In this document: positions 12,712 through 39,061 of the stretch, piece by piece
Layout of the letters: each line of letters starts with the position of its first letter
Position numbering within the stretch: position 1 is the first letter of the stretch
NCBI GenBank assembly: GCA_036874045.1
Contig: JAZBRI010000008.1
Span: 10,803,001 to 10,867,000, forward strand
Direction: 5' to 3'
DNA: 64,000 nt
DNA from: Cymodocea nodosa
Taxonomy: Eukaryota; Streptophyta; Magnoliopsida; Alismatales; Cymodoceaceae
Translations under genes and position numbers: made by a program
Notes under the pieces: generated by a model
The model's database searches: none
What the model was told of the DNA's origin: nothing
The model's input: only the letters and a program-made list of their open reading frames with translations

Positions 12712-12726
12712 ATCTCCCACTTGGAG
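12712..12726 (-). other. Polypurine tract of copia A
   Basis: Minus strand CCAAGTGGGAGAT immediately precedes the LTR start TGTTAGGG. This is the standard polypurine tract and LTR junction of plant Tork/Tnt1-type copia elements. Confidence 0.85.
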
Positions 12727-12819
12727 TTTGACACAATGATCAAAGAAAAAACAATATCTACTCTTAGCTTACAGATTATTTGTAGCTCAAATAAACATCA
12801 ACTCCACATCCCCTTTTCC

Positions 12820-13805: not shown

Positions 13806-14017
13806 TAGTTAAATCAATGAAGAAAGTCTGTTGAGTTATCTGTAATTCCACGGACTATATATTTTCTATTATGCCACTGTAGCGGTTGCAGAAACAGGAC
13901 AGTTGGAAGAAAAACCACGACTACACGTATCGCGTAGGGAGAAGAAAGCATCACCGTTGATATGAATGAAGGAAATCCAACCAACCATTCAAGTAGAAGT
14001 AGTTACTACTGAAGAAA

Positions 14018-14025
14018 TATAAAAG
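14018..14025 (+). promoter_or_regulatory. Candidate LTR TATA box
   Basis: TATAAAAG in a purine-rich context, conserved in the 3' LTR near 26386 and in other LTR copies. It lies about 1 kb into the LTR. A second, weaker TATTTATAAA is near 13496. Confidence 0.55.
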
Positions 14026-15231: not shown

Positions 15232-15250
15232 TGGCGCCGTTGCCAGGGAA
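15232..15250 (+). other. tRNA-Asp-type primer binding site of G1
   Basis: TGGCGCCGTTGCCAGGGAA is 7 bases after the LTR. It matches the known Athila primer site apart from one base and is the best preserved of the primer sites in the window. The leader 15251-15388 begins with an imperfect ATTGA/ATAGA pentamer repeat (to about 15320). Confidence 0.9.
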
Positions 15251-15388
15251 TTGAATTGAATTGAATTAAATTGAATAGAATTGAATTGAATTAAATTGAA
15301 TAGAATTGAATTGAATTAATATAAGCAACTATTAGAGCTATTTCGTTTTAATAGCTAGAGTTGTGTGTTTTCTTTTGTAATTGAGAAT

Positions 15389-16543: not shown

Positions 16544-17228
16544 GAAATACCATTCTAGAAAGAACCTTAATAGACTTAGGTGCAAATATAAATGTTATGC
16601 TAAGTGATATATTTGCATCCTTAGGATTAGAAGGCTTAACTCCTACTAGTACGGTTATTCAATTAGCTGATAGAAGTATAAGATACCCTAGAGGAAAAAC
16701 AGAGGATGTCTTAATTAAAATCAAAAATTTTATATATCCTATTGATATTGTAATTCTGGATTCCCAACAAATTAAGCATAAAAATAGTGATACATCTTTA
16801 ATTTTGGGAATGCCATTTTTAGCAACATCAAGGACTGTTATAAATTGTAAAACTAGAGTAATGAAGTTAGCATATGGTAATGAGGATACTCAATTAAATA
16901 TTTTGAAACCAAAAAGGTTTGAGGAGTTAGAAATGTCCTTACACACTATAGACTTTTTAGAGGATAAGGAGATATGTTAGATGATGTGATTCAAGAAGAA
17001 TTAAATAGGCAAATCAATTCTGAAACTTTAGAGGAAAGTGAAAGCATAAATATAGAAGAACATCTAGAAGAAATTAATTTAGAAAATGATGATGTTCAAT
17101 TAGGAGCTCTAGCTTTTGATGGGCAGCATTTAGAATTAAAACCTTTACCTCCTAAATTAACCTATATATTTCTGGAAGAGAAACGAACTTGTCCAATCAT
17201 TATTGCTTCAGATTTAAAAGAGGATTAA
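16474..17228 (+). pseudogene. G1 aspartic protease region
   Basis: A retropepsin-like domain with the active-site motif LIDLGANINVM (about 16567-16600) and the closing ILGMPFLAT motif (about 16800-16830). It would cleave the polyprotein in the particle. A downstream linker (to 17228) with acidic residues and PPKLTY leads to RT, as in Athila Pol. It is shifted one base relative to the gag frame, and frames overlap at 16974-16980, so at least two indels are present. Confidence 0.88.
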
Positions 17229-20031
17229 ATAGTTAAATTAAAAGATGTAGTAAAAAGTTATAAAGAAGCAATAGGATAGACTATGACTGATATAAAAGGG
17301 TTAAGTTCAACTTTATGTTGTCACCACATATATTTAGAAGAGAATGCTAAACCTGTTAGAATTCCTGAGAGGAGATTAAATCCAAACCTTAAAAAGTAGT
17401 CAGGAAGGAAATAGTTAAATGGTTAGATAATGACATAATTTATCCGATTTTAGATAGCTCGTGGGTTAGTCCAATCCATGTAGTTCCCAATAAATCATGA
17501 TTAACAGTTATTAGGAATGAAAGTCAAGACTTGATACCTACTAGAATTCAATCAGGCTGGAGAGTATGTATAGACTATAGAAAGCTGAATGTTGTGACTA
17601 GGAAAGATCATTTTCCCTTACCTTTTATAGATCAAATGCTGGAAAGATTAGCAGGGCAAGAATATTTTTGTTTCCTAGACGGGTATTCAGGGTATAATCA
17701 AATTCCAGTAGCATTAGAAGATCAAGAGAAAACAACTTTCACCTATCCTAATGGAACTTATGCTTTTAAGAGAATGCCATTCAGATTATGCAATGCACCA
17801 ACTACCTTTCAAAGGTGTATGTAGGGCATATTTACTGGAATGACTAAAGATTTTTTAGAAATATTTATAGATGATTTTACTATATATGGCAACTCATATG
17901 AAGTCTGTTTAAAAAATTTAGACTTAATATTAAAACGTTGTGTGGAAAAAAAAAAATGGTTTTAAATTGGGAAAAATGTCACTTCATGGTTAAACAAGGA
18001 ATAGTCTTAGGGCATGTTGTTTCTAAGAAAGGGTTGGGAGTAGATAAGGTTAAAATAGAAGTAATTTCTAATCTACTAGAACCTAAATCAGTAAAAGATA
18101 TTAGATCATTTCTAGGACATGCTGGTTTTTATAGAAGATTTATTAAAGACTTTAGCAAGATAGCTAGACCTTTAACTAATCTATTAAAAGATGTCCCATT
18201 TAACTTTGATAAAAATTGTAAGGAATCATTTTTCAGACTTAAGACTAGCTTAATTTCAACTCCTATAATTCAAGCACCTGATTGGAACTATCCATTTGAA
18301 TTAATGTGCAATGCTTCTGATTTTGCTGTAGGAGCGGTGTTGGGACAAAAGATAGAAAAATCTCCTAGAGTGATTCATTATGCAAGCAAAACCTTAAATG
18401 ATGCTCAAGTTAATTACACAACTACTGAAAAAGAATTATTAGCTATTGTGTTTGCTTTAGAAAAGTTTAGATCATATCTGATTGGAGCTAAAGTAATAGT
18501 ATACACGGATCATTCAGCTCTAAAACATCTAATAAAGAAAAAAGAAACTAAACCTAGATTGATCTGATGGATATTATTATTGCAAGAATTTGATCTAGAA
18601 ATTAAAGATAAAAAAGGTTGTAAGAATGTAGTAGTAGATCATTTATCAAGATTACAAATAAAGAAATCAAATATTGAAATTAAGGATAATTTTCCTGATG
18701 AACAATTAATGACCATCAACACAATGCCTTGGTATGCAGACATAGTTAATTACTTAGTTACTAGTTTAACACCTAAGGATTGGAATAGACAGGATAAGAA
18801 ATTGTTTTTCTCAAGAGTAAAATATTACTATTGGGAAGACCCATACTTATTTAAGAAATGTCCTGATCTGATTTTAAGGAGGTGTGTTCCAGAAACTGAA
18901 TATCCAAGCATATTGTCTTTCTATCATGACCAAGTTAGTGGAGGGCATTTTGGTTTAGGGAAAACTACTGCAAAAATTCTGCAATGTGGGTTTTATTGGC
19001 CAACACTATTCAAAGATGCTCAAAAATATTGCTTAAGTTGTTTAATATGTCAACAAATAGGAAGAATATCAAAGAGGAATATGATGCCTCTTAATCTTAT
19101 TATTGAGGTTGAAATCTTTGATGTGTGGGGAATAGATTTTATGGGTCCATTTCCTTTGTCTAATCAATTTAATTACATATTGTTGGGGGTGGATTATGTA
19201 TCTAAATGGATAGAAGATATTCCTACAAAAACTAATGACAACAAAGTGGTAATACAATTTATAAGAACAAATATATTTTCCAGATTTGGAATACCTAAAG
19301 CTATTATCAGTGATAGAGGAACTCATTTCTGTAATAGAAATTTTGAAGCCTTAATGAAGAAATATGGAGTAAACCACAAAATTCCAACATCATATCATCC
19401 ACAAACAAGTGGACAAGTAGAAAGTGCAAACAAACAAATTAAGTTAATCTTAGAAAAAGTAGTAAATCCTACTAGAACTGATTGGGCTAATAGATTGATA
19501 GATGCACTTTGGGCTTATAGAACTGCTTATAAAACGAGCTTAGGTATGTCACCTTTTAGGCTAGTATATGGAAAAAGTTGTCATTTACCTGCTGAAATAG
19601 AACATAAAGCTTATTGGGCATTAAAAACTCTGAACACTAATTTAAATCAAGCTGCTGAAAATAGAAAAATGTAATTAATTGAATTAGAAGAATTTAGAAA
19701 TGAAGCTTATTCAAAGACTGTAAGAGAAAAAGAGAAAATTAAATTCTGGCATGATAGAAAAATTATTCCTAAAAGCTTCGAAATAGGACAAGAAGTATAT
19801 CTTTATATGGCTAGACTCCATAACCATCCAGGAAAATTAAAATCTAGATGGGCAGGACCTTACATAGTTTGAAATATTTATCCTTATGGAGCTATTGAAA
19901 TTGAAAATCCTAAAAATCAGAATATATTTAAAGTAAATGGACAAAGACATAGACCTATTCTGAAAACACCAAAAAACTCCTTTGGAATTATGGAAGAAGT
20001 TAGAGTAGAGGACTACTCGAGCTTTACTTAG
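17229..20031 (+). pseudogene. G1 reverse transcriptase, RNase H and integrase
   Basis: Pol in usual gypsy order. RT (about 17400-18110) shows WRVCIDYRKLN, the FLDGYSGYNQI block and the catalytic FIDDF motif. RNase H (about 18280-18560) shows [28 protein letters not shown] and [10 protein letters not shown]; the first catalytic Asp, normally CDAS, is Asn here. Integrase (about 18900-19680) has the D,D,E residues in [16 protein letters not shown] and QVESANKQ. The C-terminal domain continues through a stop at 19674 to SRWAGP and ends at TAG 20029. Breaks include TAG at the Trp of the 'IGWT' block (about 17277), a stop at 17822, a slip in the 11-A run at 17946-17956, and TGA at 18565. It is not functional as read. 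Confidence 0.93.
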
Positions 20032-20095
20032 TAGAAAATCAATTTTTATGTTGATATAAAAAAATATATATATATATATAAAATATAAAAATCAT

Positions 20096-20270
20096 TGCGG
20101 TTCAACCGACTAGATCCATCGGTATGACCGAAACATAAAAAAATATGTATATTAATTTTCAAAAAAAATATTGGTTTTACCGAAACATAGTATCGGTTCA
20201 ACCGAAAGAAAAAATAAATAAATTTTTTTTTAGGTCTGATCGAAACATAGTATTGGTTAAACCGGTAAAA
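20096..20270. repeat. CGGTT...AACCGA palindrome cluster upstream of extra ORF
   Basis: Short palindromes built from CGGTTCAACCGA, GGTTTTACCGAA, GGTATGACCGAA and close variants, linked by AAACATA. They lie between integrase and the extra ORF. Equivalent clusters are at 50320-50525 (G2) and 60361-60660 (G4). Function unknown. Confidence 0.8.
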
Positions 20271-20325
20271 AAATAGAAAAACTATTATCAGTAATATTTT
20301 TATTATTATATTTGCTCATACGGGG

Positions 20326-20425
20326 GAGTCCGTTGAGTTACGCTTAACTCAACGAGCTTACTCCGTTGAGTCTTGAGTTAGTCAACGAGCTTATTCTGTT
20401 GAGTTAACTATAACTCAACGGAGTA
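20326..20425. repeat. CCGTTGAGTTA/TAACTCAACGG palindrome array
   Basis: Three to four hairpin units with arms CCGTTGAGTTA and TAACTCAACGG and short loops. The same units occur near the ends of all Athila LTRs here and downstream of the extra ORF at 23241-23425. Confidence 0.85.
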
Positions 20426-20499
20426 CTGTAGCTAAGACCGCGGATAAAATAGTAATAGTTGGTTCAGGAAATGACCTGATTACCCGCCTAAACTTAGGG

Positions 20500-20530
20500 C
20501 TTATTTAAACTAAAACCTAGGGTTTTGGGG
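20500..20530 (+). promoter_or_regulatory. Candidate internal promoter for the extra ORF
   Basis: CTTATTTAAAC followed by AAAACCTAGGGTTTTGG about 95 bases before the extra ORF ATG. The second part contains AAACCCTA-like sequence on the minus strand, a plant telobox-type promoter motif. G2 (near 50036) and G4 (near 60930) keep TTTATTTATACTAAA at this place, a better TATA match. Whether it drives a separate transcript is inferred. Confidence 0.4.
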
Positions 20531-20605
20531 GCATTATTTGGCAAATCATTTAGAATCTAGAACAATAGAAATCAGAGCGATTTTGTGCTGTTGTGTAACT
20601 CCACG

Positions 20606-22816
20606 ATGAGGAAGATGACACCTGAATTCTGAGAAGAGGCTGTTGATACATCAGAATTTCTAAAGGAATTAGAAGAATGGCACACGCAATAGAAGATCAG
20701 AAATACGACGAGAGAAAAAGAGTTACAGAAGGTAGAATTTAAACTTTTTAGATTAAGAAGAATATTAGTAGATTGTGGTATACAAATACCCTAGATAATG
20801 GAGACACGAGTCAGAGTAGCGACAGAAATTGCAGTAAGTAAAGAAAGAAAGATCTGGCCAAACAATGAAGTAGCCCTAGAATTAATCCCATGTAAGTCCC
20901 GGCTCTGGTTCAAAAGACGAATCTGTAAACGAGCTAGATGGGCGATCTAGGAGCAAGAAAGGAAAGAAAATGAAGAAGAGGCAACTGAAGAATAGGAGGA
21001 ATCAATTGCTAAAAGACCTATTCTTGAGGAACAATAGTTAGGACCTCTAGTTCAGCCAATAGAGCCATTGCCACGAGTTGCATTTGCTTGGCTGAGAACT
21101 AAAAAAGAAGAGAAGGAATTTACTAGCCTGGTCAAGATAGCAAGAGACCAAGGTGATACTCAAGAGATAGCTATGGCTAAGGCACATATTTTATATGATG
21201 CCATTAAGAAAAAAAGGGTCAAAGAAAGGATAAAGGCCCAATACAAAATAAAAGTTGAACAATATTAGGCAGCAACTAAATCAAGTGCTGTAGGAGAGGC
21301 TGGTCCTTCGAGACCAGTAGTTATAAAAAGAGTTAAACAGGAAGAGCCAGTACCTATGGCTCGAAGGCCTGTAGAGCCTACTTTTATAGATTTAATTTCA
21401 TAAGAATAAGAGGAAGAACAAACACAATTAATCAGAAAAAAGAAAGGAAAAGAAAAAGTGCCTGAATATGAAGAAATTAAATTTGAAGTACCAATTTTTA
21501 AAGGGCTTGTGGAGCAAATTTTTATTAACTTGTTATCTGATTCTAAGGAGGAGCTGCAACAGTAGGAGCAAAGTAAAGAAGAAAATCAGGCTGAAATTAG
21601 TCTATAGCCTGTACAAGAAGAAACAGAAATTAGGGCAGAAACTGAATTGCCCGTGACTCCATCCCAATTTGTTACAGAATCAAAAAGAACAGTAACAGAA
21701 CAGATTGGTAGTCAAGAGGAAAAAGAAAGAGTAGAAAATGAAGAGGTTGAAAAAAGCCATTTGGACAAAAATAATTTCACAGATTCCATTGAAGAACAAG
21801 AAACTCTTTAGCAATTTATGGAAAGAATTCAAGATAGAGTGGAGAGTTTTGCCGGGTCACCACCACAAACAAAAACAGAAATTGAGGAATTTGTAGAAAA
21901 TGTTCAAATGCAGCCTATAGAAGAGGAAGAGCAAGAACAAACCCCTCTGGAACAACAAAGTCACCTTCCTAACCCAATTGAAACAATAATTTTGAATGAA
22001 GTACATTTTTGTAGTTAGGAAGCTTATACTAAATACCAAGAAATAAGGGGTTATGATATTATTTATAGTAGACCAGTAAATTGGGATGGAATGCAAGAAA
22101 TCAAAGATTTATTTGAATTCCAAGGTCTACTGCAATTCATTTCTAAAGAAAGAGGGCATGCAGTATATGAGAATTTAGTGCCCTGTTTTTATGCAAATTT
22201 AAGAGGAGGAAGAGGATTAATTTCTAACGTGGAGGAAGCAGATGTACAGATAACACTAGAGCTTCTCCACAACATTTTTGGTTTAAAGAATGAAGGAATA
22301 AAAATTTTGGAAGACACAATTGCAGTCGAGTGGACTGAATAGGAAATTAAGGATTGTTTAGCTATCAATCTTGGTGTGCCATTATTAAACAGATTGAAGC
22401 ATTTAAATGGTAAAGCACACATGGTAGCTAACATTCTGATTAAGAATGTCTATCAACGATAGGGCCATGACATAGAATTAAGTCAATTTGTTAAATGGGC
22501 CACATATGCAGTTGTAAATAAGATCTAAATAAATTGTTCTGCAGTTTTTATCTCCAAGTTGAAAGTAGTAAAGAAAAAATTATTTTATGGAGATTTGATT
22601 CCATTGCTAATGGTGGATTGTATTGATTTCATGAAATAGACATCAAAAAGGATCAGATCAAGAACCATTTCAGTGAAAGAATACAGAAATTTTGTAGCTG
22701 CAGAGATAGTTGTACCTTCTTAAGGCATTACAGGAGTAGTAGAGAGGATTAATCAATTAGAACTTCAATTAGAAAAACTCCAGAAGGAAGTAGATGAACT
22801 TAGGTATAGAGATTAA
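20606..22816 (+). pseudogene. G1 extra ORF (env position), ~736 codons, plant-transposon-protein-like C-terminus
   Basis: ATG 20606 to TAA 22814 is exactly 737 triplets with no net frameshift. Eighteen in-frame stops are read (13 TAG, 4 TAA, 1 TGA). N-terminal ~150 residues: charged, helical, Arg/Lys-rich. Middle (about 150-465): acidic Glu/Gln-rich, probably disordered. C-terminal domain (about 473-650): YDIIYSRPVNW, EFQGLLQFI, LVPCFYANL, SNVE, LELLHNIFGLKN, LNGKAHM, KWATY. A short coiled coil closes it (about 711-735). There is no signal peptide or clear membrane segment, so it is not an obvious envelope protein. The domain resembles the family Pfam labels 'putative plant transposon protein' (from memory; unverified). 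Homologues: 47679-49948, 61031-63243, and in copia B at 32327-34649. Confidence 0.8.
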
Positions 22817-23240
22817 ATTGTATTGTTTGTCTACTTGTGTAAAATTTTATGATGTACTTGTAATGTAATTGATTCATATTAATGAATGTAAATTTTTCAA
22901 ATGCAATTTTCATACATGTTTTGGATGTGAAATGAATGGAATTTATTAAATATTATGTAATTTGTGGAACTTTATGAATGAATATGTAACAGATTTACAA
23001 TTTGCTGAATGACAGGATAAATGCTTAAAAATTTTTGCATATTGCAAGGTAAAATGTAAATTCTACATAACATAAAATAACCTGCAAGTTAAATCTTTAT
23101 ATAATGGTCAGATTTAAACGAATTTTGATTAGAATGATGCATTTATGACATAGATTTAACTTTACTTCAGTTAGCAGAATAAAAAATAGAAAAGAATAGA
23201 GAGGAACTTACGAGAGTAAAACTTAGAGGTTGCTAAGTGT

Positions 23241-23425
23241 TAACTCAACGAAGTAAGTCCGTTGAGTTAAATGCAACTCCACGAGGTCAGTAATATAATA
23301 TAAGGTCACTCCGTTGAGTTATCTATAACTCAACGTAGTTAGTCCGTGGAGTTAGCAACAGTAATCGACTGTGTTCTGTTGAGTTATCTATAACTCAACG
23401 AGGTTAGTTCGTGGATTAAGCAGAA
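23241..23425. repeat. Downstream CTCAACG palindrome array
   Basis: About four units with arms (T)CCGTTGAGTTA and TAACTCAACG(G). G4 has the equivalent at 63705-63955 with more units; G2 keeps part at 47160-47222 and 46310-46375. Confidence 0.85.
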
Positions 23426-24046
23426 CGGATATTCTTTTAACCACAAACGAAACTTTGTCGGTTTAGCGGTTACCAAAATTTGAAATTAGTAGTGGTACAT
23501 GTATCCATAAAAATAGGAGCCACGATGCATGTTGCAAGACACGTTTTTGCAACGAGATTTATTCACTTTATGGATGTGTAGTATATATATAAAACAAAAT
23601 GTTATTTACGAGTTACCAGCACTTTTAAAAGAAAGGAGAATGAGTTGGAGGAATTGGAAGGAGAAGTAGTTGATTCAACTTCATCCGACAACAAATATTT
23701 ATTGAATGGAAAGCTTTAGATTGGTATGTAATTAATCTTCTACTATTTATTTATGAGCACATGGACTCGTTCTCTAAGCACTAAATGATTAGTAAGAACA
23801 CCTACCTAGGAATTTTCATTGCAGAGGAGATGGTTATATTATAAACAAGTTATATTTTGCTTTTATCTATGAATGAAAAGTTTTTCAGAATCAAAAATCG
23901 GAATATGCAGAAAGAGATACAAATGAAACAAGGTATGTAACTAATTACTTACCTTGAATTTTAAATCAAACAAAACTGTATTCATGCCTATTACAATTAC
24001 TGTACTTATTGTCAAATCTTTTACATTGAGGACAATGCAAAATGTA

Positions 24047-24062
24047 GATATGGGGGGGAGGT
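24047..24062 (+). other. Internal polypurine tract
   Basis: TATGGGGGGGAGG follows 'TTGAGGACAATGCAAAATG', a block I recall from many plant gypsy elements. It is conserved in G2 (46213-46230, minus). It lies 1.3 kb before the 3' polypurine tract and could be an extra plus-strand primer. Confidence 0.6.
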
Positions 24063-24879
24063 AATTAAAGTAACAACCATGTAAGTTTGTTAATTAAAAA
24101 AATTAAAATGGTACTGCAAAGTTGTGGAAATTGAAAGTTTTTATGAAATAGCTGTAAGTATCCGATAATTGAGACTGTAAAATTTATATAAACTGTAACT
24201 GCTTGAATGTTATCTTTAGAAGGCTATATAAGATGCTATAGAATTTACTATTTATGCAAATCTAGATATAGTATCTTATGTTTTTTCTGAATTTCATGAG
24301 TTTAATAGTTTCACGATTTTAAAATGAAATCAGAATGCTTAATGAAAAATCAGTAAATTATTTGAAGTCCTAAAGGAGCTGAGATGTGAATTCTAGATTA
24401 AATGAAACATATATGATGAAAGATACATTTAATTTGACTGATTGAACTTGTAGAATGATTTATGTGTAGATCTTATTAAACTATAGAAAAAGTATGAGCT
24501 TATCGTTATGGATTCATATTTACAGTAAATGATAGAAGCAGGACTATATGAGATTGGTGTTTTAATACATCTGTATTAATGAAATACATATATATACAGT
24601 ATGTGATTAATGTTTTGTTTTGTGTTTGTATTTTGATTAAATAAAAAATAAAATAAAAAAAATAAATTTTTTTTTTTGAGAGTTTATTGACTTGTTTGAT
24701 CACGAGCCTTTTGTACTTGAGCAGATAGGTATGTAGGGATTGTTGACTTGAAAAATGACTCTTGAAATCTGGTAACCTAAGATCTTGATCAGATCTGGGA
24801 TTGTTGACTGAAAGCTCGTTACATGGGCGCATTAGAAAGCTCTTGCATGATTCAAGCTTGTCAAATTAACTTTTAAAGT

Positions 24880-24917
<38 letters not shown>

Positions 24918-25376
24918 CTATTCTGAAAAGATACAAGTGTTTTGTGAAATACAGATATCTTATGAATCGAGTATATTTTCTGTTATATAGAATTGCTGTA
25001 ATATGAATCTAGAATTGACTTTTGAAGCTGTTTAATGGAGAGAATTCTTTATTCTACTTGTCTTAATCATATTGAATTGAATTGTATTTTGATTCGTATG
25101 TTGTTGAAATTTCTTCTAGAAATCTTATTGGAAAATTCAGGATGACAGATGATGAAAAGAAGAACAAACAATAATATAATTAACATTTATGTGATGATGA
25201 TATACTTTGTATGTAATTTACATATATTCTAAGTATATTTGCAGGTTGATTACTAAAACATATAGAATATATTTTTATGCTAAACAGAAGAAAAACAAAG
25301 GGGAAGAATTAATTCTAGCACTTTTAGAAAGACCAATTAATTAGATCTTAGTTTGCTAAGGGACTAGCAAAATTTA

Positions 25377-25389
25377 GGTATGGGGGAAG
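25377..25389 (+). other. 3' polypurine tract of G1
   Basis: GGTATGGGGGAAG ends directly at the 3' LTR start (25390). G2 has the same tract at 44929-44940 in minus orientation. Confidence 0.9.
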
Positions 25390-27569
25390 TGTATAGAATG
25401 AAAAAGTGCATATTATTAGCGGTTAAATGATGGTTAATTGCATAATATTTAGATTTTCATATGAGAATTAAGCCATTATGTTATAATTGCATTGTTATAT
25501 GCTTTAATTGAAGAATCTGCTTAATTTGGGGGAATTAATGTTAATTTAGTACATTTCTGAACTGACGATAAGTTGCAGGCTGTGAAATTCTTAAGTGTCC
25601 GAATTTTTTGATATTTCGAACAATTATGTTTAACATACCAGACATATTTCGGACAGTTATGTTTAACAAACCGCACATGTATCAGATAGTTATGTTTAAA
25701 TTTCCAAACAGTTATGTTTTGAAAGAATATTTTATTATTTCCTGAAGTACACGTGTCAAAACCATAATGCATGACTTAAGTGAACTTTCGGTGAGTTATC
25801 TATTACTTTCTGAAATCGCAACTAGGCATCAGATAGTTATATGTATAACTCTTCGAAATCTCTTTTTATTTATAAAATAGCTGAGGGCACGTGTCATGTT
25901 CTGGGAAATTGACTTAAGTGGCTTTTTAGTGAGTTATCTCTAACTATCCGAAATGCATCTGAGCATTGGATAGTTAGACCTGTAACTCTCTGAAATGTTA
26001 TTTTATGATTAAACTACTGTTGACACGTGTCGAGATCTGGTAGATTTACTTAAGTTATATATCGGTGAGTTATTTGTAACTATTCGAAATGCATCTGAGC
26101 ATCGGATAGTTAAGTTTATAAGTATCTGAAATGCACCTAAGCATCGGATAGTTAAATTTATGCAAATGTTTTATAGTTAAATCAACGAAGAAAGTCCGTT
26201 GAGTTATTTGTAACTCCACAAACTATATATTTTCTAATATGCCACTGTAGCGATTGCAGAATCAAGGCAATTGGAAGAAAAACCACGACTGCACGTATCG
26301 TGTAGGGAGAAGAAAGCATCACCGTTGATATGAATAAAGGAAATCCAACCGACCATTCAAGCAGAAGCAGTTACTACTGAAGAAATATAAAAGAAAAAGA
26401 AGAAAAGGGTGTGATCGATGGACGACCAGTGTATATAGAGGAGGAGCACCGAGCTTCTACAGGCAGTATCGGCGATTCTTCGAAGTATCACACTAACCAT
26501 CGTTACCACCACCATAATCACCAACCATCGGAGGTCTGTGAGAATACTTTCTTGATGTCGAGTCGATTCCGAGCCAAACATAGTGCTTGACAACCACTGT
26601 GAGGAGTGATCGCGTCGCGGGAAGGGAAGCCATTTTCACCAAGCGTCGACTCATATTTCAGGAGATCGTAAAGCTTTTAGCCTTGGCTTCAGGTTGATGC
26701 TTGTATGCTGAAGAGGAGATCATCTTGCAATTCTAGACTCGCGAATCTATAGGGAGAGGAGACAGAATTGTAAGTGGTTTAATTTTCAGTGGTGTAATCG
26801 CATTGCAAGTAGTGTTGAAAGTATTTACTATCAAGTGAGATTACTTTACATTTCACCTTTCGCCCATTTACATGTTCATATTAAACCAAAAATACCAAAA
26901 ACAACTTATCTGCTATTGTATGTTGTATTTGAGTGTTGTATCGTGATTAATGTTATCTTTGTCAGTGTTGTGATTGTTTTATATTGTTTTAGTTTTACAA
27001 TTTACTGAAATTGGTTCGTTCAAAAGACTTAAAGATTTTAATGGTTACTGTTTGAATTATCTGAATATTAGTATTGTTTAATGATAAATCCAATGTTAAC
27101 TAACATTAAAGAGCTTAATTGATGTTATTTACAATCTGTGGAATTGCCCAATGGTTGGCCGAATTCCTCTGTAAATAGCAGTATTAAAAAGAAAAAAGAT
27201 AGACTCATGGAGTTAACTTAAGTCCACGAGGTTAGTCGGTTGAGTTAGCCATAACTCAACGAACTTTGTCCATTGAGTTAACTGTAATTCAACAAAGAGT
27301 TTATTGAATATATAAATTTGATTGTTAACAAATGAACAGTTCTCAAGTTCTTCAGCAATTCCCTATGAGATCGACCTGTACTTGCACACTGATACAATAT
27401 ACACTGTGCACTTGTAGTTAAAGTACAAATTGGAATTAATATCTAAATTGTATTAAAGGTTGTTTGTTTACTTCTAAAAGAAAGAATAGGCATAAAGATA
27501 AATTAACTAAGTAAAAACAGAAGTAACAAATCCATGTTTTTCTAGTGTAGTGTTGGGAAAACACAAACA
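25390..27569 (+). repeat. 3' LTR of G1
   Basis: 2180 bp, TGTATAGAATG to ACACAAACA, collinear with 13022-15224. It carries the three CACGTGTC units (about 25749-26165), the TATAAAAG near 26386 and the CTCAACG palindromes (27205-27300). It is followed by CTAAG, the target duplication. Confidence 0.95.
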
Positions 27570-27574
27570 CTAAG

Positions 27575-28947
27575 TAAATGGTACTTTGATTGTCATAGAA
27601 TAGAATACTTCTTTTTTGTTTGTGCCCTAATTCGGCTAGTACATTCTCTAGCTAGATTCTTTCTTTAGTTGCCTCTGCTACTGCAACATATTCAGCTTTT
27701 GTGGTCGAGAGTGCAACAATACTTTGTAACTTGGATCTCTAGCTTATTGTAGTACTTCCTATGTAGAAAACATACCCTGAAGTATTTTTGCTTTTATCCA
27801 ACTCTCTTCCCAAATCAGCATCACAGTAGCCAATCAATTCAACTGGTCCTTTCTTGAAGTTCAAATCTACATCTAGGGAATATTTGAGATATCTGAGTAT
27901 CCATAGCGTAGCAGACCAATGCTCAACTCCTAGATCTGCCATATATTTACTGACCACTCCCACTACATGAGATATATCAGGTCTTGTGTATATCATGGCA
28001 TACATTAAACTTCCCACTACTAAAGCATATGGTATTCTAGACATCTTTGTCCTTTCTTCTTCTGTCTTAGTTGGCTGATCTTTAGACAACTTGAAGTGGG
28101 GTCCAAGAGGGAGTTCAGTTTTCCTCTCATTTGAGATGTTAAATCTTTTAAGTACCTTTTCTAAATACTTCTTCTAATTTAATTTCAATGTGCCTGCCTT
28201 TCTATCTCGAATGATTCTCATACTCAAGATTTGCTTGGCTTCTCCCATATCCTTCATGTCAAATTCTTTTGACAATTGTCTCTTTAATTGCTTAATCTGT
28301 TCCATACTTGAATAAGTAATTAATAAATCATCTACATAAATTAGTAGAATAATGAAGTAATCATTAAACAGTTCTATGTAGCAGCAATAGTCTGTATCAC
28401 ATCTTTTGAAGCCTAGGGTACAGGTAAAGGTATCAAATCTCTTGTATAATTGTCATGGTGCTTGCTTCAAACCATACAGACTTTTCAGCAATTTACATAC
28501 TGTCTTTCTTTTCTCGCTAGTCACTGCAAATCCTTTTAGCTGCATCATGTAAAGTTCTTCCTGCAAATCCCCATGTAGGAATGTTGTCTTTACATCCATT
28601 TGTTTGAAGAACAAATTTTCTACAACAATAATGCTTAAGACTATTCTTATAGTATTCATCTTCACGATTGGAGAGAATACTTTAGTATAGTCTATGTCAT
28701 GAATTTGTTGAAAACCCTTGACTACAAGTCTAGCCTTAAATTTCTTGCTGCCATCTAGTTGTTTCTTCATCCTGAACACCCACTTGTTTCCTAGGATTTT
28801 CTTTACTTCTGGCAATGAGGTTAGCTCCCAAGTTTTATTCTTCTCTAGGGACATCATTTCTTCTTTCATTGCTAACTCCCATTTATGTGCATCACTTGCA
28901 CAAATTGCTTCCTGATATGATTTAGGTTCACCATCATCCGTTAGCAA
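27575..28947 (-). pseudogene. Copia A reverse transcriptase and RNase H (5' piece)
   Basis: Copia RT with NKWVFRMK, ARLVVKGF, FKQMDVKTTFLHG, KSLYGLKQAP and the catalytic YVDD (near 28325). RNase H follows with ELIGYCDADLG and STTKAEY, and is cut at 27575 by G1 after QSTIYL. The remaining RNase H is at 12820-13021. Stops include TAG after LKQAP, one at the KKYLEKV block, and one near 27740. In a live element this makes the cDNA. Confidence 0.93.
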
Positions 28948-30479
28948 TAGATAATTGAATGATGGTACATACCTTTCAGGTTGTTTGGAAACCCTTCCAA
29001 ATCTTCTAAGTTATCTGGTGACAACTTCATCTTCTTGATCATCTAGATGTTCTTGTTGTTCAGCCTTTGGAAGCTGAATTTCTTCTACAAGTTCCTTTTG
29101 AAGTTGTTCAACATCATTATCTAGACTAATCTCAGCAATACTTTCAGACTAAAGCTTAGATTGCTGTTCATCTACACTTTCTCTATGCTTGTACATCTTG
29201 GATTCAATAAATGTGACATCTTTTACACGAATTATTTTCTTGGTTTCTTCTATCTAGAATCTATAACCAAAATAATCCTTACCATAGCTAATGAAATAAC
29301 ACTTCTGTGATTTTGAATCCAACTTGTCTCTTTTGTCACTGTTCAAGTGGACAAATGACTTGGATCTAAAAACTTTTAAATGAGCATAGTTGACCTCTTT
29401 CCCAGTCCAGAATTCTTTAGGGTTTTTGAGCTCCATTGGGACAAATGGTCCTCTATTTATTAGATGGGTAGTTGTATTAACAACTTCTGCCTAGAATATC
29501 TTGGGAAAACTTGCATGTAGTCTCATGCATCTTGCCTGTTCATTCAAGGTCATGTTCATCCTTTCAATAATTCCATTTTGTTGTGGAGCTCCAACTACAG
29601 TCCTCTGCCTTCTAATCCCTTGCTCTTCATAGTAGACTTTGAATTCATGGCTATCATATTCTCCTCCATTATCTAACCTGATGGATTTAATTTTTTTTCC
29701 ACTTCTGCCTTCCATTTCTTGAAGACTTGAAAACTTCAGACTTCTATTTCAAAAAATAAATCCATACCTTCCTTGTGCTGTCATCAATGAAGGTGACATA
29801 ATAGAGAGCACCTCTTAAAGAACTAATAGGGGCAAGTCCCCACACATCTGTGTGAACCAGCTCCAATTTCTATGACTTAGGATCATAAGGAGTCTTGGCA
29901 AAGCTGACTTTCTTCCGCTTTCCCTCAATGCAATCCTCACATATCCCTAAATTGACATTCTTCAGCTTAAGGATTTTCCCTTCTACCACTAAAACCTTTA
30001 GTCTAGTCTCACTGAGGTGTCCCAGTCTTTTATGCCATAAGTTAGTGTCTTCAATATCATTGACTGCTGCAATAGTGTCATCTTGATCTGATGTCAAATA
30101 TAAGGTGTCTATCCTCTATCCTAAGGCAACAATTCTTGTACCTTTGGTTACCTTCCATTTGCTTATACCAAAGGAAATCTAATAACCATTATTATCTAGG
30201 AAACTTATGGAAATTAGTTGCTTTGCAAGATCAGGAACATATTTGACTTCTTATAATTTCTATATCCCTTGTTTTGTTTTAATGTATACCTCTCCTTTTC
30301 CCAACACATCCAAACTTGTGTTGTTAGCTAAGTACACTTTCTTTACAGGAGTTGCACGATAATTGTGCAACAAATCTTTCTTGTAGGTAGTGTGGAATAA
30401 AGCTCTTGAGTCTAGTACTCATGAGTCAATAGAACTGTCCACACAGCATATTAGGGCATCATTTGAATCGTAAGAGACA
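28948..30479 (-). pseudogene. Copia A protease and integrase
   Basis: Reading leftward from about 30479: a decayed protease region (the DSGA-type site reads as a stop-broken DSRALFHTT), the GAG pre-integrase HHCC module (LWHKRLGHLSE...CEDCIEGK), and the integrase core. The core has Asp at LVHTDVWG, Asp at RLDNGGEYD and Glu at IERMN. Then comes the variable linker before RT. Many Gln and Trp codons are stops (TAG/TAA), and there is a frame slip near 29700-29760. Integrase inserts the cDNA into the chromosome. Confidence 0.9.
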
Positions 30480-31264
30480 ACATTTGCACCTACTCCTTCT
30501 GATTCCTTCCCTTTGCTGTCTTTCTTGGGAGCTTTATATTATGACTTGAAGTGCCCTAATTGATTACAGTTCCAGCATTTAATATCTGATCTAACCTTAC
30601 CGGTACCTCTAGACTTTGACCTTCCGTTGGATTTAAATTGTTTTGATTTACTTCTCCCTCTACTTTCAACACTAAGGGCAGAAGTTGAAGTTGACAATTC
30701 ACTTGTCCTACGAATGTCCTCACTCAAAATTAAATCCCAAATGTCACTCATTTTGAGCTTCTCATGACCTAGTGAACTACTTACACTAGTCACGATAAGA
30801 GACCAACTTTCTAGTAATGAGGATAATAAAATCAAGGCCCTGACTTCATCATCAAATATTATATCTACTGAATGTGGTTGATTCAAAATTATACTTAACT
30901 CATTAATGTGGTTTGTAACATTTCCACTTTCATGCATTTTCAGATTGAATAATCTACGCATGAGAAATACCTTGTTGGTGGTTGATGGCTTCTCATACAT
31001 GTTGGATAGTGCTTTCATTAAGTCAACCATTGTTTTCTCCTTGGCAATATTTAAATGAACGTTCCTTGCTAGTGACAACCTGACGAGACTTAGAGCTTTC
31101 CTATCCAGCAACTCCCACTCTTCCTAATCCATCTTCTTTGGTTCTTTTCCGAACAGAGGTTGATGAAGATCCTTCTAATACAAATAGTCTTCTATCTAAG
31201 ACCTCCAGTATCCAAAATCTTTTCCATCAAACTTCTCGATCCTGAACTTTCTATCGTTTGCCAT
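30480..31264 (-). pseudogene. Copia A gag
   Basis: ATG at 31264 starts MANDRKFRIEKFDGKDF, the usual N-terminus of Tork/Tnt1-type Gag. The capsid-like helical domain (UBN2/gag-copia type) continues through about 30750. A Ser/Lys/Arg-rich stretch and a CCHC knuckle (CWNCNQLGHFKS, last Cys lost to a Tyr codon) follow. Stops interrupt the first 60 codons at Gln and Trp sites. Gag forms the particle and packages RNA. Confidence 0.9.
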
Positions 31265-31288
31265 TTTGTTAAACTGAAAAACCTTCGA

Positions 31289-31299
31289 CTCTCATACCA
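31289..31299 (-). other. Primer binding site of copia A
   Basis: Minus strand TGGTATGAGAG, one base from TGGTATCAGAG, complementary to the 3' end of initiator tRNA-Met as in most copia elements. It lies 2 bases from the LTR edge at 31302. Confidence 0.85.
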
Positions 31300-31301
31300 A
31301 T

Positions 31302-32326
31302 TGATAGAACTAAAACCGATCGTTTAGTCAACTTACCATGGCACGATTCTGAAACACTCACCTCTTAACTCACCGAAATTGGAAAGTGAAGAGAAAGAGG
31401 AAGAAATAACATTGAAGACACAGGATTTACGTGGTTCAACAACAGCCTACGTCCACAGAGAGTTGAGGGTTCTACTATGAGCTTTGGCACAATCAACTGC
31501 AATGTTTTACAACATCATAAAGGTTTATATACTACCCAACTTGGAGTTAATAAACCTTTAATTACATTTGAGCCATTACAGTAGAGAGATAATGCTTCGG
31601 AGAAGGAACTCTCAATTTCAAAGCCTTATCTTCCTATCTTTCTGAAATCTACAACACTTCAGATAGTTACAGAACTTAACTATCCAAAGAAAATTCTTCT
31701 TTCTTCATTTGATATACTAGGCGGTACTATAGCAGGCTAACTGTCTAGAGAGATTCTATCTTTTGGATAGTTATAGACTTAACTATTTGAAAACTCACTT
31801 ATGTCTCTCTCTTAGTCCAATTGAAAGGTTCTACTGTTAACTCTCTCAAAACTGCATGTCTTTCAGATAGTTACTGACTTAACTATCTGAAAACTCACTT
31901 AAGTGTCTCTTTAGTCATTTCGGAAGGTTGTAGCTATAACCTTCGGAAAAACTTTTGATTTTTGGATAGTTACTACCTAACTATCCGAAGATCCACTTAA
32001 GTCACTACTTTTCAGATACTTGGCTTCTTAATTATCTGAACATCCACTTAAGTGTCTGACTTTCGGATACTTAGTTTCATAACTGTCTGAATGTCCACTT
32101 AAGAGTCCTTTAAGTCATTTCGGATGGTTACAACCAATAACCTTCCGAAGTCTCTTGACTTTCGGATGGTTAGCTCAAAGCCTTCCGATTGAAAACATTA
32201 TTTCGGATACTTTGACTTGATAACCTTTTGAAATTATAAATCTATCAGAGACTTATTGCTAACAAGCTTCCGACTAAACTTGGACTTCTTATGACATACT
32301 CCACACCTGTACCACTTGCCCTAACA
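31302..32326 (-). repeat. 5' LTR of copia A
   Basis: 1025 bp, collinear with 11690-12711. The TCGGATAGTTA/TAACTATCCGA palindrome array is at about 31665-32230. Flanks TGCCG (right) and GGCCA (left of 11690) agree at three of five bases, so the target duplication is plausible but not clean. Confidence 0.92.
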
Positions 32327-34649
32327 TGCCGATCCTATTGTTGTTGTTGCTGTCGAATTATAGGTGTATTTGTTTCCTGGTATTTTTGTAGTTCCTTTGC
32401 AGAGAAAGGTGTTGACTTTAATTATTTTTATGGCCAAGGTGTAATATCTATATGACTTGCCACAATTCTCAAAAGTGTATCACCATAAAATAATTTACTC
32501 TGTAAGTTTAAGATATGAGAAACAAGTTCACTTGTATATGGTTAATTAATACATATGTAGCATAAAGACAGCATCTGCCAACCTCTACACCATGACCAAA
32601 CCTCTGAAAGAGTGAAGCATGCAGTATTTTTGTAATAAAATGTGCTTGGCCATTTAAATCATTTAGTAATCTCATTTGATTATTGGTAGTCGGATCTTTG
32701 GCTAAACTTTTAATGTCCCATCCCAACTAATAAACCTACTTTCTTTTTGATAATTTAACTCCATTTTTCAAACCAAGTACTTGATAAAGTAATTCTAGAG
32801 TTAAATATATAGCGTAGTCTTGTATATTGGAAACATGAATACCTTCTTCCATTGTTAAGTTTGAGTAAAAATAACTTACAAGTTCTGGTACAACAAGATG
32901 GCTTGGCTGTTGTGGAAGTAGAGTCAATAAGCCTTGAAATGCAAACATTTCTCGTATATGTGCCATCCCTTCAAACTTAACTGGTCTTGAATATAAAACT
33001 GTAAAAGTTTTATATGTTTGAAATTTTTCATAATATGAACTATTTCTAAACCATAACAATGTATTTTCATCTAAATTCTATTCAGGATTAGGTATTTTCC
33101 TATCATAATGTTTTGATTTGGGACTTGTTTTAATATTATCAGCAACATCTATATTTTTAGATCTTTCAGAATTAGTGGAATTTCTATCAAAGCTAGTATA
33201 AATGTCTGAAATATCTGTTATTGTCATATCAATAATCTGCTGAATTTCTTCTGTGTGATCTTCTTGAAACATATCAGTATCAATAGTCTCTGTACTATTC
33301 TATCTATTAGCAACATTTATTACTATAATTGGACTATACAATAATTGTCTTTGTATGAAAGAATGCTCTATATCTATCTGTGTAATAGAGTCATTCTATA
33401 ATTCTGAAATTTCTATAATTGAGACATTAGTAGTGTCATATTCTATTTGTAATTGTGTAGTTTGTTTATTATATACATTTATCAACAAATATACTATATA
33501 CTGTAACAGACATAACCACATGTATTAAATGTAGTATAAGCAACTATACCAAAAATAAAAAATCTCTATCCAAGATATAGTAAGAGGAAAAATATCTATA
33601 CATTCCTCTTTAGATGAAATATCTTCAAAATTCATAGACTCAGTGTTTATATTATCAAAAATATCATCAAAATTGATATCATCTGTATATATATCATCAA
33701 AATTTCCTACATGTTTTCTTTTCGTAGGAAAAGAATATTGGCTTGTAGTATGATGTGAAAAACTATCCATTGTATTAAAAGAAACATTATGCACTAATGT
33801 GACACAATACCTTATAGTATATGCTTGAAATCTGATATTTGTCACATCTGCTGGGATTCCTGAAATAAAATCCTGTCTAGCTTGTGTAATGGAACATAGT
33901 TTTCCATTTTTCAACGATTCTTCTCTTTGCTGCAATATGCCTTGTACAGTTGCAGTCAATCCAAAATATTCTAATGTCTTCTTCTTTTTTCAACTATATA
34001 TCTGTAGTGTTTTTGGTTGTTTAGGAGGTTCTAAAGTTTTCTTAATTTCTCCTATTAAATGCACCTGTAGTCTTGATGGTCCTTCACTATGATGCCTAGG
34101 TTGTAATAATGGAATATAGAGTTTTAAGCTCTCAACCTCTATCATTTTTAGTTGATAAACTTTTTGTCCTTCACTTCGAAGGCCCATTTTCCAAATGGCA
34201 GTTTTTTGTTCATCAATAAATTGTTGAATGTCGTCTAAAATAGCTAGAGGAAAATAATGTTGGGAATACAAAGATTCTAATTCCCTGTTGGCATTTTCTA
34301 TTATTGGTCCCCATTTCTTTTCATAATAAGTAATAGACTGTACCGATTTTTCAGGTACTTGTCTAGAACTTGTAACAACCTTAGGGTTAGGTTGTTAAGT
34401 TCGTTTCCACATTTGTAATGTGAAAAGTTCAGTCTGTTTTAGTCTAAATTGTGTTTCAACATAATTTTAGATAAGTTTCCAACAAAAATTTTTCTCGTCT
34501 TGAACAGCTTTTCTAATTTCATGTAGTGCTTCATTAGAAAAAGTATACCTTGAGTAGATGTCGTTGATCTCATTTTCTATTTTCTGAAGTTCCATCGCTC
34601 TTTTCTGCACTTTTGTCATTCTACCACATCCTCATCCACGTCTTGACAT
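32327..34649 (-). pseudogene. Copia B extra ORF (env position), homologous to the Athila extra ORF
   Basis: Downstream of copia B RNase H on the minus strand, starting at ATG 34649. N-terminal part (34649-33990): charged, helical, with stops at likely Gln codons. Middle (33960-33070): acidic, Asp/Ser/Ile-rich. C-terminal domain (33059-32508): LYSRPVKFEGM, AFQGLLTLL, ELVSYFYSNL, VSNIQD, LTLELLYQVLGLKN, LNGQAHF, FQRFGHG, ATYVLIN, each with a counterpart in order in the gypsy ORFs at 22082-22560 and 62490-62960. It ends at copia A (32326) and resumes at 11689. No clear membrane segment except a short aromatic stretch near 33540, which may be a frameshift artefact. Not functional as read. Some Sireviruses are known to carry an env-like ORF here; this one looks different. 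Confidence 0.75.
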
Positions 34650-36552
34650 TGTCGATTAATCTTCGCTATTCACTGTAGAATTTAGAGGAAGTAAAGATTG
34701 TGAAACTAGGGTTTTACCAAGGTAGAAACGCGAAAGGTTGCTAGTAATACATTTATAACTCTTTGAGTTTATAAACGAATAAATGGATTCAATCATTGAA
34801 ATCATAAATATAAGATCCGTTATTGATAAATAACTCAAATGCTTATAATAACTGTACGAGTTTTACAACTGACAAAAGTAGAAGACTTAGTGTAACTATT
34901 CGTGTAAAGAAAATAACTACTAGCTAAGTAAAAATGAGAAAACTCGAAGACTTATGATAACTATTCGAGTTTTATGAGTAGTAAAGCACATAACTATACA
35001 ACAAACTAGGATAGTTATTGTCATATTTTAAGTCTTTCATAAAAATATAATAATATTAAGTTAACTGTTTGAGTTTCTTAGATGGATATGCGTAAAAGTC
35101 GAAGACTTAAGCATAAATGTTCGAGTTTCTTAAAAGGATAAAATATAAGAATTTAAAAAAGAAACTCAGAGAGAAATCTAACTATTCGAGTTTGTAGAAG
35201 AGTAAAAACTTAACAATACGAAGCTCGAAGGGTTAGATAAAATAGTTGTAATCAAGTGAAATACATAACTGTACGTTAAACTAACTAAATGAGTCTAACT
35301 TTTTATCCGTATAAGTTCTAGAATATTTGCATTTGATTAAATGTACCATTGTTTGTCATTATTTGCTCCCCCTACATAAATGTAGTCTAGAGAATCTATG
35401 GTATACTTAGTATTAGGTTGCCAAACCCTAATAGATTTGTCATTAAAGTCCAAATAGTTGACTTAAGTTAGTTGCTAAGCCTTAAATAGATTTGTCATTT
35501 AAGTTCAAAATCTGGCGTACTTAAACTAGGTTGCCAAGCCCTACTAGATTTGAGTTTCTCTAACTTTTTTTTTTTAATTTAAATACAAAAATAAGTAGTA
35601 GATTTAACAATTTAGAATTTTTGGCTTTTATTTTACTCAATTTACAAAAGAAAATTCATAGAGATATACTTTCAGGTAACTTAAAAGAATTCAATAATGA
35701 GTATACGAACTTAAGAAAATAAATGCATTACATTATGTGTAAAGAATAGATAATAACAAAGATTATATGCATAGATTATGGCAGAATTGTTATAACACTT
35801 GTAAAGCAAACTAAGCTTGAGTACATTGCCCCTTTTTTTAAAATTTTATGTATTACCTCCCACAATATCATCTTTTTATGTGATCACAATCTCTTGCTTA
35901 GGGGAAAGATAACTAGTTACTCAATGATAAGTGAGAATAGGTAACCTTTTTTTTTTATATTAAATAGAATCTAAATTACTTGTAAAATGAGTTTTCAGTC
36001 AGCACATCCCAAACCAGTTGGTTTAAGTGACTAGGTTTTAAGATCCCCCAATGGATTTAATTACTCAAGCAATTGCAGATAAACAATAAAACAATATAGT
36101 AAATTGAATAAGAGGCAATCACAAGACTTAATTTTTCTAACAGTATGTTAATAACTTTCCTTTAATGAATGGTACATATTTTCTATGTATTTTTCAATTA
36201 AAATCTTTATAATGGCATATACATAAGTAACAAAAAAAAATAGTTGGCACTCATATTTAATCAAATTAACCTTCCTTAAGTAACCTTTTCTGAATTTTTC
36301 TTAAATAAATTGATTTCAATAAAAATCAAAATTTCATAAATTCTTAACTACTAGTAAATAAAAATTCTAAAACAGATATTTTGAGTTTTTTTTTTAATAA
36401 AGAAATTAAATTCTAAAGCTACTTTATAACAAACCAAAATGTTATGCAATGAATAGGACAATTTAAACATTAGATAACCTATAGATACCAAGTTTTAATC
36501 ATAATTTTGAAAAGGTATTCTCATTTAAGGGTTTTGTAAATAGATCTACTAA
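34650..36552 (-). other. Copia B spacer between RNase H and extra ORF
   Basis: 1.9 kb, AT-rich, no useful reading frame. The half nearest the extra ORF (about 34838-35320) is crowded with CGAATAGTTA/TAACTATTCGAG-type half-sites and ACTCGAAGACTTA, as in the copia B LTR. The rest has T-runs and nothing I recognise. This mirrors the palindrome arrays upstream of the Athila extra ORF. Confidence 0.65.
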
Positions 36553-37925
36553 TTATTCTATGGTAGGAACAAAATTTAATACTATTTTTTCTTTTATAAC
36601 ATTATACCTTAGAAAATGATGTCGAACTTCTATATGTTTAGCTCGTGAATGTAAGATAGGATTTTTAGATAAACTTATTGTAGAACTACTATCATAGAAA
36701 ATCTTAATTGGTTCATAGGCTAAATTAAAATCCTTTAAAGTTTGTCTGATCCATAGGATTTGAGCACACCAAAGTACAACAGCTATATATTCAACTTCAA
36801 TTGTAGATAATGCTACACAATTTTGCTTTTTGCTAAACCATGACACTAAAGAATTTCCTAATAATTGAAAAGTACTACTAGTGCTTTTTCTTTCAGACTT
36901 ACATCCTACGAAATCAGCATCACTATAACCTATTAAATTTAAAGAACTATGTTTAAAGTAAAACAATCTGAAATTGATGGTTCCTAATAGATATTTAAAA
37001 ATTCATTTAATAGCAAGTAGGTGTGACTCTTTAGGATTAGATTGATATCTAGCACAAGTACACACACTAAACATAATATCTGGTCGGCTAGGTATTAAAT
37101 AAAGTAATGAACCAATCATACTTCTATATTGTTTTATATCTACAGTTTTTTCAAAGTCATCTTTATCCAACTTAGTGATAGTACTCATTGGTGTATTCTT
37201 TATTTTAGTGTTGCCTAACCCAAACCTCTTTAATAAATCTTGAGTATATTTTTCTTGTGAAATAAAAGTACCTTGTTCAAACTGCTTAATTTGTAAGCCT
37301 AGGAAAAATGATAATTCACCCATCATACTCATTTCAAATTGATTAGTCATGTCTTTCGAAAAAGACTCAACTAATTTATCATTTGTTGCTCCAAATATGA
37401 TGTCATCTACATAGATTTGAACTACCAATATATCTTTTTTAACCTTCTTGATAAAAAGAGTATGATCTACCTTTCCCATAGAATACCCTTTTTCCATAAG
37501 AAATTTAGATAATCTCTCATACCAAGACCTATGGGCTTGTTTAAGGCCATATAGTGCCTTCTTAAGCTTGTAAACATACCTGGGATGTTTTGAATCTTCA
37601 AAACTTGGAGGTTGTTTTACATAAACTTCTTCTTTTATATATCCATTTAAAAAATTAGTCTTAACATCCATTTGATATAATTTGAAATCCATGTAACAAG
37701 CATATGCTAACAAAATTCGTATTGATTCTAATCTAGCAATAGGAGCAAATGTTTCATCATAGTCAATTCCTTCCTCTTGCTTGTAACCTTGAGCAACTAA
37801 TCTAGCTTTATTTTTAACTATATGTCCATCTTGATCTACTTTGTTTCTAAATACCCACCTTGTTCCTATTATGGACTGATTTTCAAGTGGTGGAACTAGA
37901 TCCCATACCTCATTTCTTATAATAG
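36553..37925 (-). pseudogene. Copia B reverse transcriptase and RNase H (5'-truncated)
   Basis: The RT frame is open from 37925 to 37003, with [37 protein letters not shown] and the catalytic IYVDDIIFG. After one stop (TGA for a probable Arg, near 37000), RNase H continues to 36553 with LIGYSDADF, STIEVEYIA, YDSSSTISLS and KHIEVRHHF. Motifs are closest to copia C (56374-57837), a Sirevirus-like pattern. The gene is cut at 37925, where LTR sequence begins directly. Gag, protease, integrase and the start of RT are missing, so this element is a deletion product. Confidence 0.92.
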
Positions 37926-39061
37926 AAAGAGTGAATTGTGTCTTTAGTAATTAAACTAGCGGATAAAACAAGAGCACAAAACACTCGTAAATGAAATTCT
38001 ATTCTTTTATTTCAAGACAGAATTTACAATATCTTTTCAGTTCAATTCCCTTCTTGACGATTTTGATATAGTAATTTTTGATATGCAATTCAAATAGGAA
38101 AACAAAGCTCTTTTTCAAAACTAATTTTGAATTGTATAAAACTTGATCTTTATGCACACAACTCTTTTCTTTCTCTTTGCTCAGCTTCTGTATCTCTTCT
38201 TCTCTAGTTGTCGAATTTCAAGACTTCTTGCATTTACAGCTCCTTTTCTAAAATTGCTTGGAATTTCGAACTTCTTCTAATGTTGGAGAACTTTTCAGAA
38301 TATGAATATTCAAACTTAACTTTTCAGATAGGGATCCAGATTGAATATTCAGACTTGGTTTTTGAGATTGGGATCCTCTGTTGTAATGTAGCTCGTACTC
38401 TCTATTAGTAGTCAAACTCTGTTGTCTTTCACGTTCATCATGTTCATCCACTTGATCCACAATCCATAATCCACGTACTAATTTTCTCTTTAATCCAAAT
38501 TACTTTCTATTTAAATTTCCACTTTCTTCACTAACATTTTGAGTTTCCACAATCTCCACTCGTAGATACATCGAAACTTTATCTTCCTAGAGTCTTGTAG
38601 AATATCTTCTAAGTTTTCGATTTAGTCAAACATTTATCCTTTAACTCTTCGAGTTTTTGCACCTGCAAAACATGTGACTAAACAAAGAAACTTTTCTATT
38701 CGTTAGTCCTTTTATAAAACTCAAATAGTTATCTATCCATGCATATAAAAACTCGAACAGTTATCTAACTATTCGATTTTTCATTACCGAACGCACATGG
38801 AAAACACGTGACAACTTAAAACATTAAAAACACACGTAAAGATAACTTAATTATACGAGTTTTTAACATAAGGTATTCGACAAAAATGAAACGTTAACTA
38901 TCCGAAAGTTTAACTATTGCAAATCTAACTCTTTGGAAATCTTTAATTTATCTAACATAAAACTTTCCGATAATCTGTTAACTATTATACTTAGAGAAGA
39001 TTATGTAGACTTATTTAAATACGTTAATAAAGCATATATCATCAAAATTAAATACCTAACA
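37926..39061 (-). repeat. Copia B LTR, right copy
   Basis: 1136 bp collinear with 9837-11080, ending CCTAACA at 39061. It lacks about 17 bases at the inner edge and two of the three ~29-bp repeats. It is fused directly to RT on the left and to an opposite-strand RNase H fragment on the right, with no primer site left. Confidence 0.85.

Follow-up and report, generated by a model that had tools for sequence, protein, structure and literature searches.

The window analyzed here, 64 kb of the Cymodocea nodosa genome, consists of LTR elements nested within one another (Table 1). One of these, copia B, carries a Ty1/copia-type reverse transcriptase (RT; Pfam RVT_2, E 3.4e-46 at 37003-37713), a linker, and an extra ORF whose N-terminal part closes with a hydrophobic stretch (~33530-33474); gag to integrase are absent between its 5' LTR and RT. 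The end of the extra ORF is interrupted by copia A, an element with 90% identical LTRs (11690-12711 and 31302-32326) that in turn holds an Athila element (LTRs at 13019-15224 and 25387-27569). Because copia A was inserted at this point, the interval given for the ORF in an initial annotation of this DNA ended at 32327. In the Athila element at 15.2-25.4 kb, the pol domains stand in gypsy order and a sense extra ORF follows the integrase. In a further Athila copy (copy 3), a gypsy integrase (59289-59762) precedes the domain in the same orientation.

Other copia sequences were also found in the window. An element at 53032-57837 has a copia integrase and RT (Pfam), the latter 68% identical to the copia B RT, and halts at ~57.8 kb, where Athila-like sequence takes over; the domain of a relative elsewhere in the genome, L068, is of the second copia type described below. 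At 39062-40799, a copia RT fragment (93.5% identity to 57453-57823) is followed by opposite-strand sequence 89% like 29449-30786 of copia A, and this stretch is a rearranged or nested copia remnant. The Athila LTRs contain a tandem duplication (25865-26133 and 13404-13765) with a period of ~136-138 bases and 74-76% identity.

Table 1. Features of copia B and of the Athila elements in the 64-kb window.
Feature	Position	Strand	Basis or remarks
Copia B 5' LTR (TGTTAGG at 39061)	37931..39061	-	Direct repeat with 9837-11085, 78% identity; sequence
Copia B reverse transcriptase and RNase H (Ty1/copia type)	36553..37920	-	RVT_2; match to copia 56404-57823
Copia B linker	34650..36500	-	Eight ACTCGAATAGTTA-like motif copies; one AGGGGGAG at 35366-35373
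Copia B extra ORF, N-terminal part	33474..34649	-	Pieces 34631-34467, 34394-33990, 33989-33525; no similarity to Athila ORF found
Copia B extra ORF, linker M	33078..33299	-	Approximately neutral; dN/dS 1.17 (0.94-1.45), 21 copies
Shared domain, copia B	32380..33032	-	Pairwise scores, profile-profile match, L060 query
Copia A, nested in end of copia B extra ORF, itself holding an Athila	11690..32326	-	LTRs
Copia B remainder past copia A: extra ORF tail and AGGGGGAG stretch	11081..11689	-	AGGGGGAG at 11083-11090 and 11133-11140
Copia B 3' LTR	9837..11080	-	Begins 10 bases after start of last AGGGGGAG
Athila protease, RT, RNase H, integrase in gypsy order (pieces)	16450..19674	+	Pfam Asp_protease_2, RVT_1, RT_RNaseH, rve
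Shared domain, Athila copy 1 (broken)	22019..22813	+	L060 query match
Shared domain, Athila copy 2 (broken)	47682..48482	-	L060 query match
Shared domain, Athila copy 3	62433..63239	+	L060 query match; open 62538-63209

Copia B looks like a Sirevirus, an assignment made from its AGGGGGAG tracts. As in the Sirevirus lineage (Maximus/SIRE, including SIRE1 of soybean and ToRTL1 of tomato), a Ty1/copia element has a sense ORF between pol and the 3' LTR, several AGGGGGAG tracts, a hydrophobic segment, and a motif that recurs in both LTR and linker; the likeness to SIRE1 and ToRTL1 is one of description. In the accessible part of PMC2829016, AGGGGGAG is the Sirevirus polypurine octamer, which starts 10 bases before the 3' LTR and has further copies upstream. 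This octamer occurs three times in the 64 kb, compared to 0.32 expected, always on the - strand in copia B, and the spacing of the last copy from the 3' LTR matches the Sirevirus description. The ACTCGAATAGTTA-like motif, with a TCGA core, occurs seven times in each copia B LTR as well as in the linker but is absent from the ORF and RT. The same part of PMC2829016 reports, for some of the genus, a motif with a CGG-CCG core repeated in the LTRs and linkers of elements with an ENV gene; the copia B motif differs in lacking this core, and copia B itself has also lost gag to integrase.

The window Athila elements resemble Athila4, Calypso, and Cyclops, which have an envelope-like 3' ORF, in their gypsy order and sense post-integrase ORF, again by description, and differ from them in that four long frames lack a membrane-like segment (see below). 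The name Athila, taken from the initial annotation, is putative and reflects structure and likeness to the Pfam family PF20167. Among the flanks covered, gypsy pol upstream of the domain was seen for window Athila copies 1 and 3 only. At another genomic place, L003, an Athila-type domain has a gypsy integrase nearby on the opposite strand, an arrangement that is a rearrangement or nesting.

Members of the copia B family regularly carry the extra ORF. Of 9712 candidates from a search of one genome (374.6 Mb in 28 contigs) with 32736-33077, the best 150 were scored; each of them, the window included, matched at 80-100% identity. Twenty of these loci were examined, a non-random sample comprising the eleven top-scoring matches other than the window plus nine chosen for long open frames. 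The N2, D1, and D2 pieces of the ORF were present and colinear in all 20 copies, and the ORF start (N1) was present in 16, being missing in L043, L045, L052, and L053; in L044, the match to linker M came from a second copy within the locus. A copia RT lay upstream on the same strand in 13 copies and RNase H in 14, with neither within 5.2 kb in six. The flanks of the copia A insertion adjoined, within ~65 bases, in 19/20 copies, and a copia B LTR followed the extra ORF in all but L044 and L052. The colinear ORF and the adjoining LTR together place the extra ORF in the copia B family. The initial annotation had itself raised the alternative that 32327-34649 came into copia B as an inserted gypsy fragment. 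Although the window contains much nesting, a stray fragment is extremely improbable given the colinear ORF in 20/20 copies, the copia B LTR adjoining it in 18/20, at least 150 matching places, and no N-terminal similarity to Athila found.

Three Athila copies in the window have extra ORFs that are homologous to the C-terminal part of the one in copia B. Because all four ORFs are broken by stops, open pieces were compared, namely 32736-33077 (-) and 32508-32726 (-) for copia B. In six of eight domain comparisons with open Athila pieces, the score exceeded all 1000 shuffles, for example 207 compared to a shuffle maximum of 46 for a copia B piece and Athila 22019-22342 (113 and 107 aa), and 122 compared to 50 for a copia B piece and Athila 62538-63209 (72 and 223 aa); the remaining two comparisons paired non-overlapping parts of the domain. 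A profile-profile comparison of seven copia rows with seven Athila rows, the check proposed in the initial annotation, gave a probability of 100, E 2.4e-39, and 36% identity over 260 columns. An uninterrupted Athila domain, L060, used as a query, found four places in the window, the three Athila copies at 78-89% identity and copia B at 37% (33032-32526) and 33% (32523-32380) identity with E 7e-34. These results bear out the common ordered string of motifs described earlier for copia B and Athila, with small variants (YSRPI and YSRLV in two Athila copies), and the C-terminal homology placed at 33059-32508, except that the domain reaches slightly further, to 32380. By contrast, none of 12 comparisons between N-terminal copia and Athila pieces rose above 300 shuffles. 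Since copia B is Sirevirus-like, its extra ORF is probably the 'envelope-like' accessory gene known in that lineage, and its last 220-260 residues are probably the domain that ends the Athila 'envelope-like' gene.

Searches for relatives of known function found none in the protein database or Pfam. A protein database search with an Athila piece gave 241 candidates and none at E <= 0.001, and viral contigs searched with two domain alignments (A1 and A2) gave no match. Both domains resemble PF20167 (Transposase_32), weakly and below its curated cut-off of 45 bits. Among copia sequences, one of five domain-bearing pieces (L055, E 5.8e-6) and neither of two window pieces matched, the best copia piece scoring 26.7 bits; among Athila sequences, one of three window pieces (62538-63209; E 0.0074, 16.6 bits) and none of three long frames matched, and the Athila-type places L002-L008 scored 29-37 bits, with a best genomic place at 37.3 bits. 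Only L001, a distant domain, reached 45 bits. A search against this family, a putative plant transposon protein, was among the checks proposed in the initial annotation. The 14 best-scoring places in a genome search with PF20167 comprised 11 of Athila type, two of a second copia type (L066 and L068), and L001, so that with copia B there are four domain types. In L068, an upstream same-strand RT shares 85% identity with the copia at 56.4-57.8 kb across 85 residues. L066 has a copia integrase (45%) ~4 kb upstream and no other copia domain found, and we assign it to the second copia type mainly because its domain is 76% identical to that of L068.

How old is the sharing? Mean domain identity is 42.5% (41.0-45.8%) between copia B and the second copia type, 37.2% (34.9-40.8%) between copia B and Athila, and 34.4% between the second copia type and Athila; L001 is 26-27% identical to each type. 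The RTs of copia B and the 56-kb copia are 68% identical, whereas copia B and gypsy RTs scored 35, with shuffles up to 45, and could not be aligned beyond chance; copia and gypsy integrases matched weakly beyond shuffles (86 compared to a maximum of 56). One accessory domain occupies the same place in both a copia and a gypsy lineage, as the initial annotation maintained, and its two versions are much more similar than the RTs, which fall within shuffle noise. In a domain tree of 15 rows, from which L046 and both window pieces of copia B were left out, copia B (97/99), the second copia type (99/99), and Athila (90/91) form separate groups whose branching order the tree does not resolve, and L001 is a long branch. 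Because domain identity between copia and Athila is near the level between copia types and the RTs are unalignable, the sharing appears much more recent than the divergence of copia and gypsy. Descent of the domain from a common ancestor of copia and gypsy, with loss elsewhere, would account for the same position in both, but it is very improbable given domain identities of 35-41% alongside RTs at chance level in a similar test.

A single transfer suffices for the sharing observed, and we infer that the domain moved between gypsy (Athila) and copia (Sirevirus) ancestors. The route could have been template switching or read-through between element RNAs and, if rates are alike, the timing would be about that of the separation of the copia families seen here. 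No similarity was found between the N-terminal halves, which means that each element is arranged in its own way, and this observation would also fit separate capture of the same host gene by both lineages. None of the 14 best-scoring PF20167 places resembles a host gene, however, and we consider separate capture improbable.

The domain in copia B is constrained like the copia RT, and the linker that precedes it is neutral. dN/dS was summed over pairs in identity-filtered sets with stop-bearing codons dropped, and neutral linker M from the same copies (Table 1) served as an internal control. Values were 0.45 (0.39-0.52) and 0.50 (0.40-0.61) for the copia B domain pieces, compared to 0.45 (0.36-0.56) for RT and 0.50 for RNase H. 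For Athila, dN/dS was 0.21 (0.19-0.24) in the domain and 0.53 in an N-terminal piece. Because many copies are broken, these values are drawn towards 1. The shared domain is not the sole part under selection, as N1 is also constrained (0.51, 0.44-0.62); N2 gave 0.78 (0.66-0.93), and the hydrophobic part showed moderate constraint (0.60, 0.47-0.79).

A 19-residue Kyte-Doolittle mean of at least 1.6 marks a membrane-like segment. In the copia B family, a hydrophobic stretch lies between N2 and M in 19/20 copies, and a segment at or above this value was found in 12/20 (three of these twelve contain an internal stop, scored as zero), whereas four long open Athila frames (710, 630, 559, and 362 aa) have no membrane-like segment (maxima 1.05-1.31). 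Judged by hydropathy only, a candidate transmembrane segment is seen in copia (12/20) and not in Athila (0/4), and the earlier statement that envelope hallmarks are missing stands for the Athila frames and not for the copia B family. The longest Athila frame, L060 (710 aa), is acidic (pI 5.0), has five cysteines and no segment above 1.21, and terminates in regular leucine heptads. These observations bear on the idea that the extra proteins serve as genuine envelope proteins or in cell-to-cell movement, the shared domain being an interaction part. The position between pol and the 3' LTR and the moderately constrained copia segment speak for this idea, and plasmodesmata opening is named as a possibility in the available text of PMC7264820. 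Against it stand the Athila frames, which bear the same domain without a membrane-like segment, the few cysteines of L060 and its three possible glycosylation sites in 710 residues, and Pfam searches, which matched no envelope family. On balance we regard such proteins as unlikely. Because the Athila frames lack a membrane segment, an envelope role for the shared domain itself is unlikely; the copia protein may have a link to membranes.

What might the domain do? The copia B extra ORF lies between pol and the 3' LTR, has a high copy number, and contains a domain under constraint. The mechanism we favor, tentatively, is that of a soluble, oligomerizing accessory module that would act inside the cell on the particle or cDNA of its own element. 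The domain would be soluble and mostly helical, the helical character being weakly founded because AlphaFold gave no usable structure for five window pieces (mean pLDDT 35.8), and it may oligomerize via a coiled-coil tail in Athila or a Q-rich tail in copia. It could serve in nuclear entry, chromatin, or silencing, and would not take part in membrane fusion. The N-terminal half attached to it in the Sirevirus family is a different one, whose membrane-like segment may place the module at a membrane. A sunflower Athila aORF that carries PF20167 is predicted to be nuclear, with an NLS, in the accessible part of PMC11728184, the only source in our survey to name this family. For Cymodocea nodosa, nuclear entry is without support because a simple pattern scan of L060 found just one basic run (RKKK). 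The same source reports counter-silencing factors of VANDAL DNA transposons, and by analogy alone the protein could be such a factor for its element; solubility in Athila, constraint, and carriage by unrelated elements would fit, although we think this role improbable.

The shared accessory gene belongs to a known kind, the 'envelope-like' ORFs of Sireviruses and Athila. Du et al., in 2010, reportedly proposed a single origin, with the Sirevirus envelope-like genes derived from the gypsy lineage. In the parts available of PMC7264820, PMC3414828, and PMC2829016, these ORFs have been recognized for a long time and are described as having a disputed, unproven function, and MASiVEdb (PMC3414828) cites Du et al. 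2010 for 'recently formed hypotheses' on the origin of the gene. Two points from such partial texts count against an easy shared origin, namely that env-like proteins of the Athila lineage share little similarity (PMC1142308) and that Sirevirus ENV is highly variable (PMC2829016). In the literature surveyed, which did not include Du et al. 2010, we found no statement of homology between the copia and Athila domains. New here are the constraint on the domain compared to a neutral linker, the apparently young sharing, and a hydrophobic segment confined to copia as compared to Athila. One possible, though far from assured, synthesis is that a portable, non-envelope module crossed between Athila and Sirevirus as the copia families split, became attached to unrelated N-terminal halves, and came under polymerase-like selection in copia, which would make 'envelope-like' a misnomer for both. 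A shared, selected, and apparently soluble domain narrows the question of 'envelope-like' function to one testable module, and its distribution indicates that accessory genes can cross from one of the two major groups of plant LTR elements to the other.

As a separate observation, the distant PF20167 domain of L001/L059 (45 bits; G000:C7:14999438-15008400) is immediately followed by an RVT_3 RNase H-like frame, and remnants of RT and RNase H of gypsy-like type occur a few kb upstream. This locus may represent a third kind of domain-bearing element.
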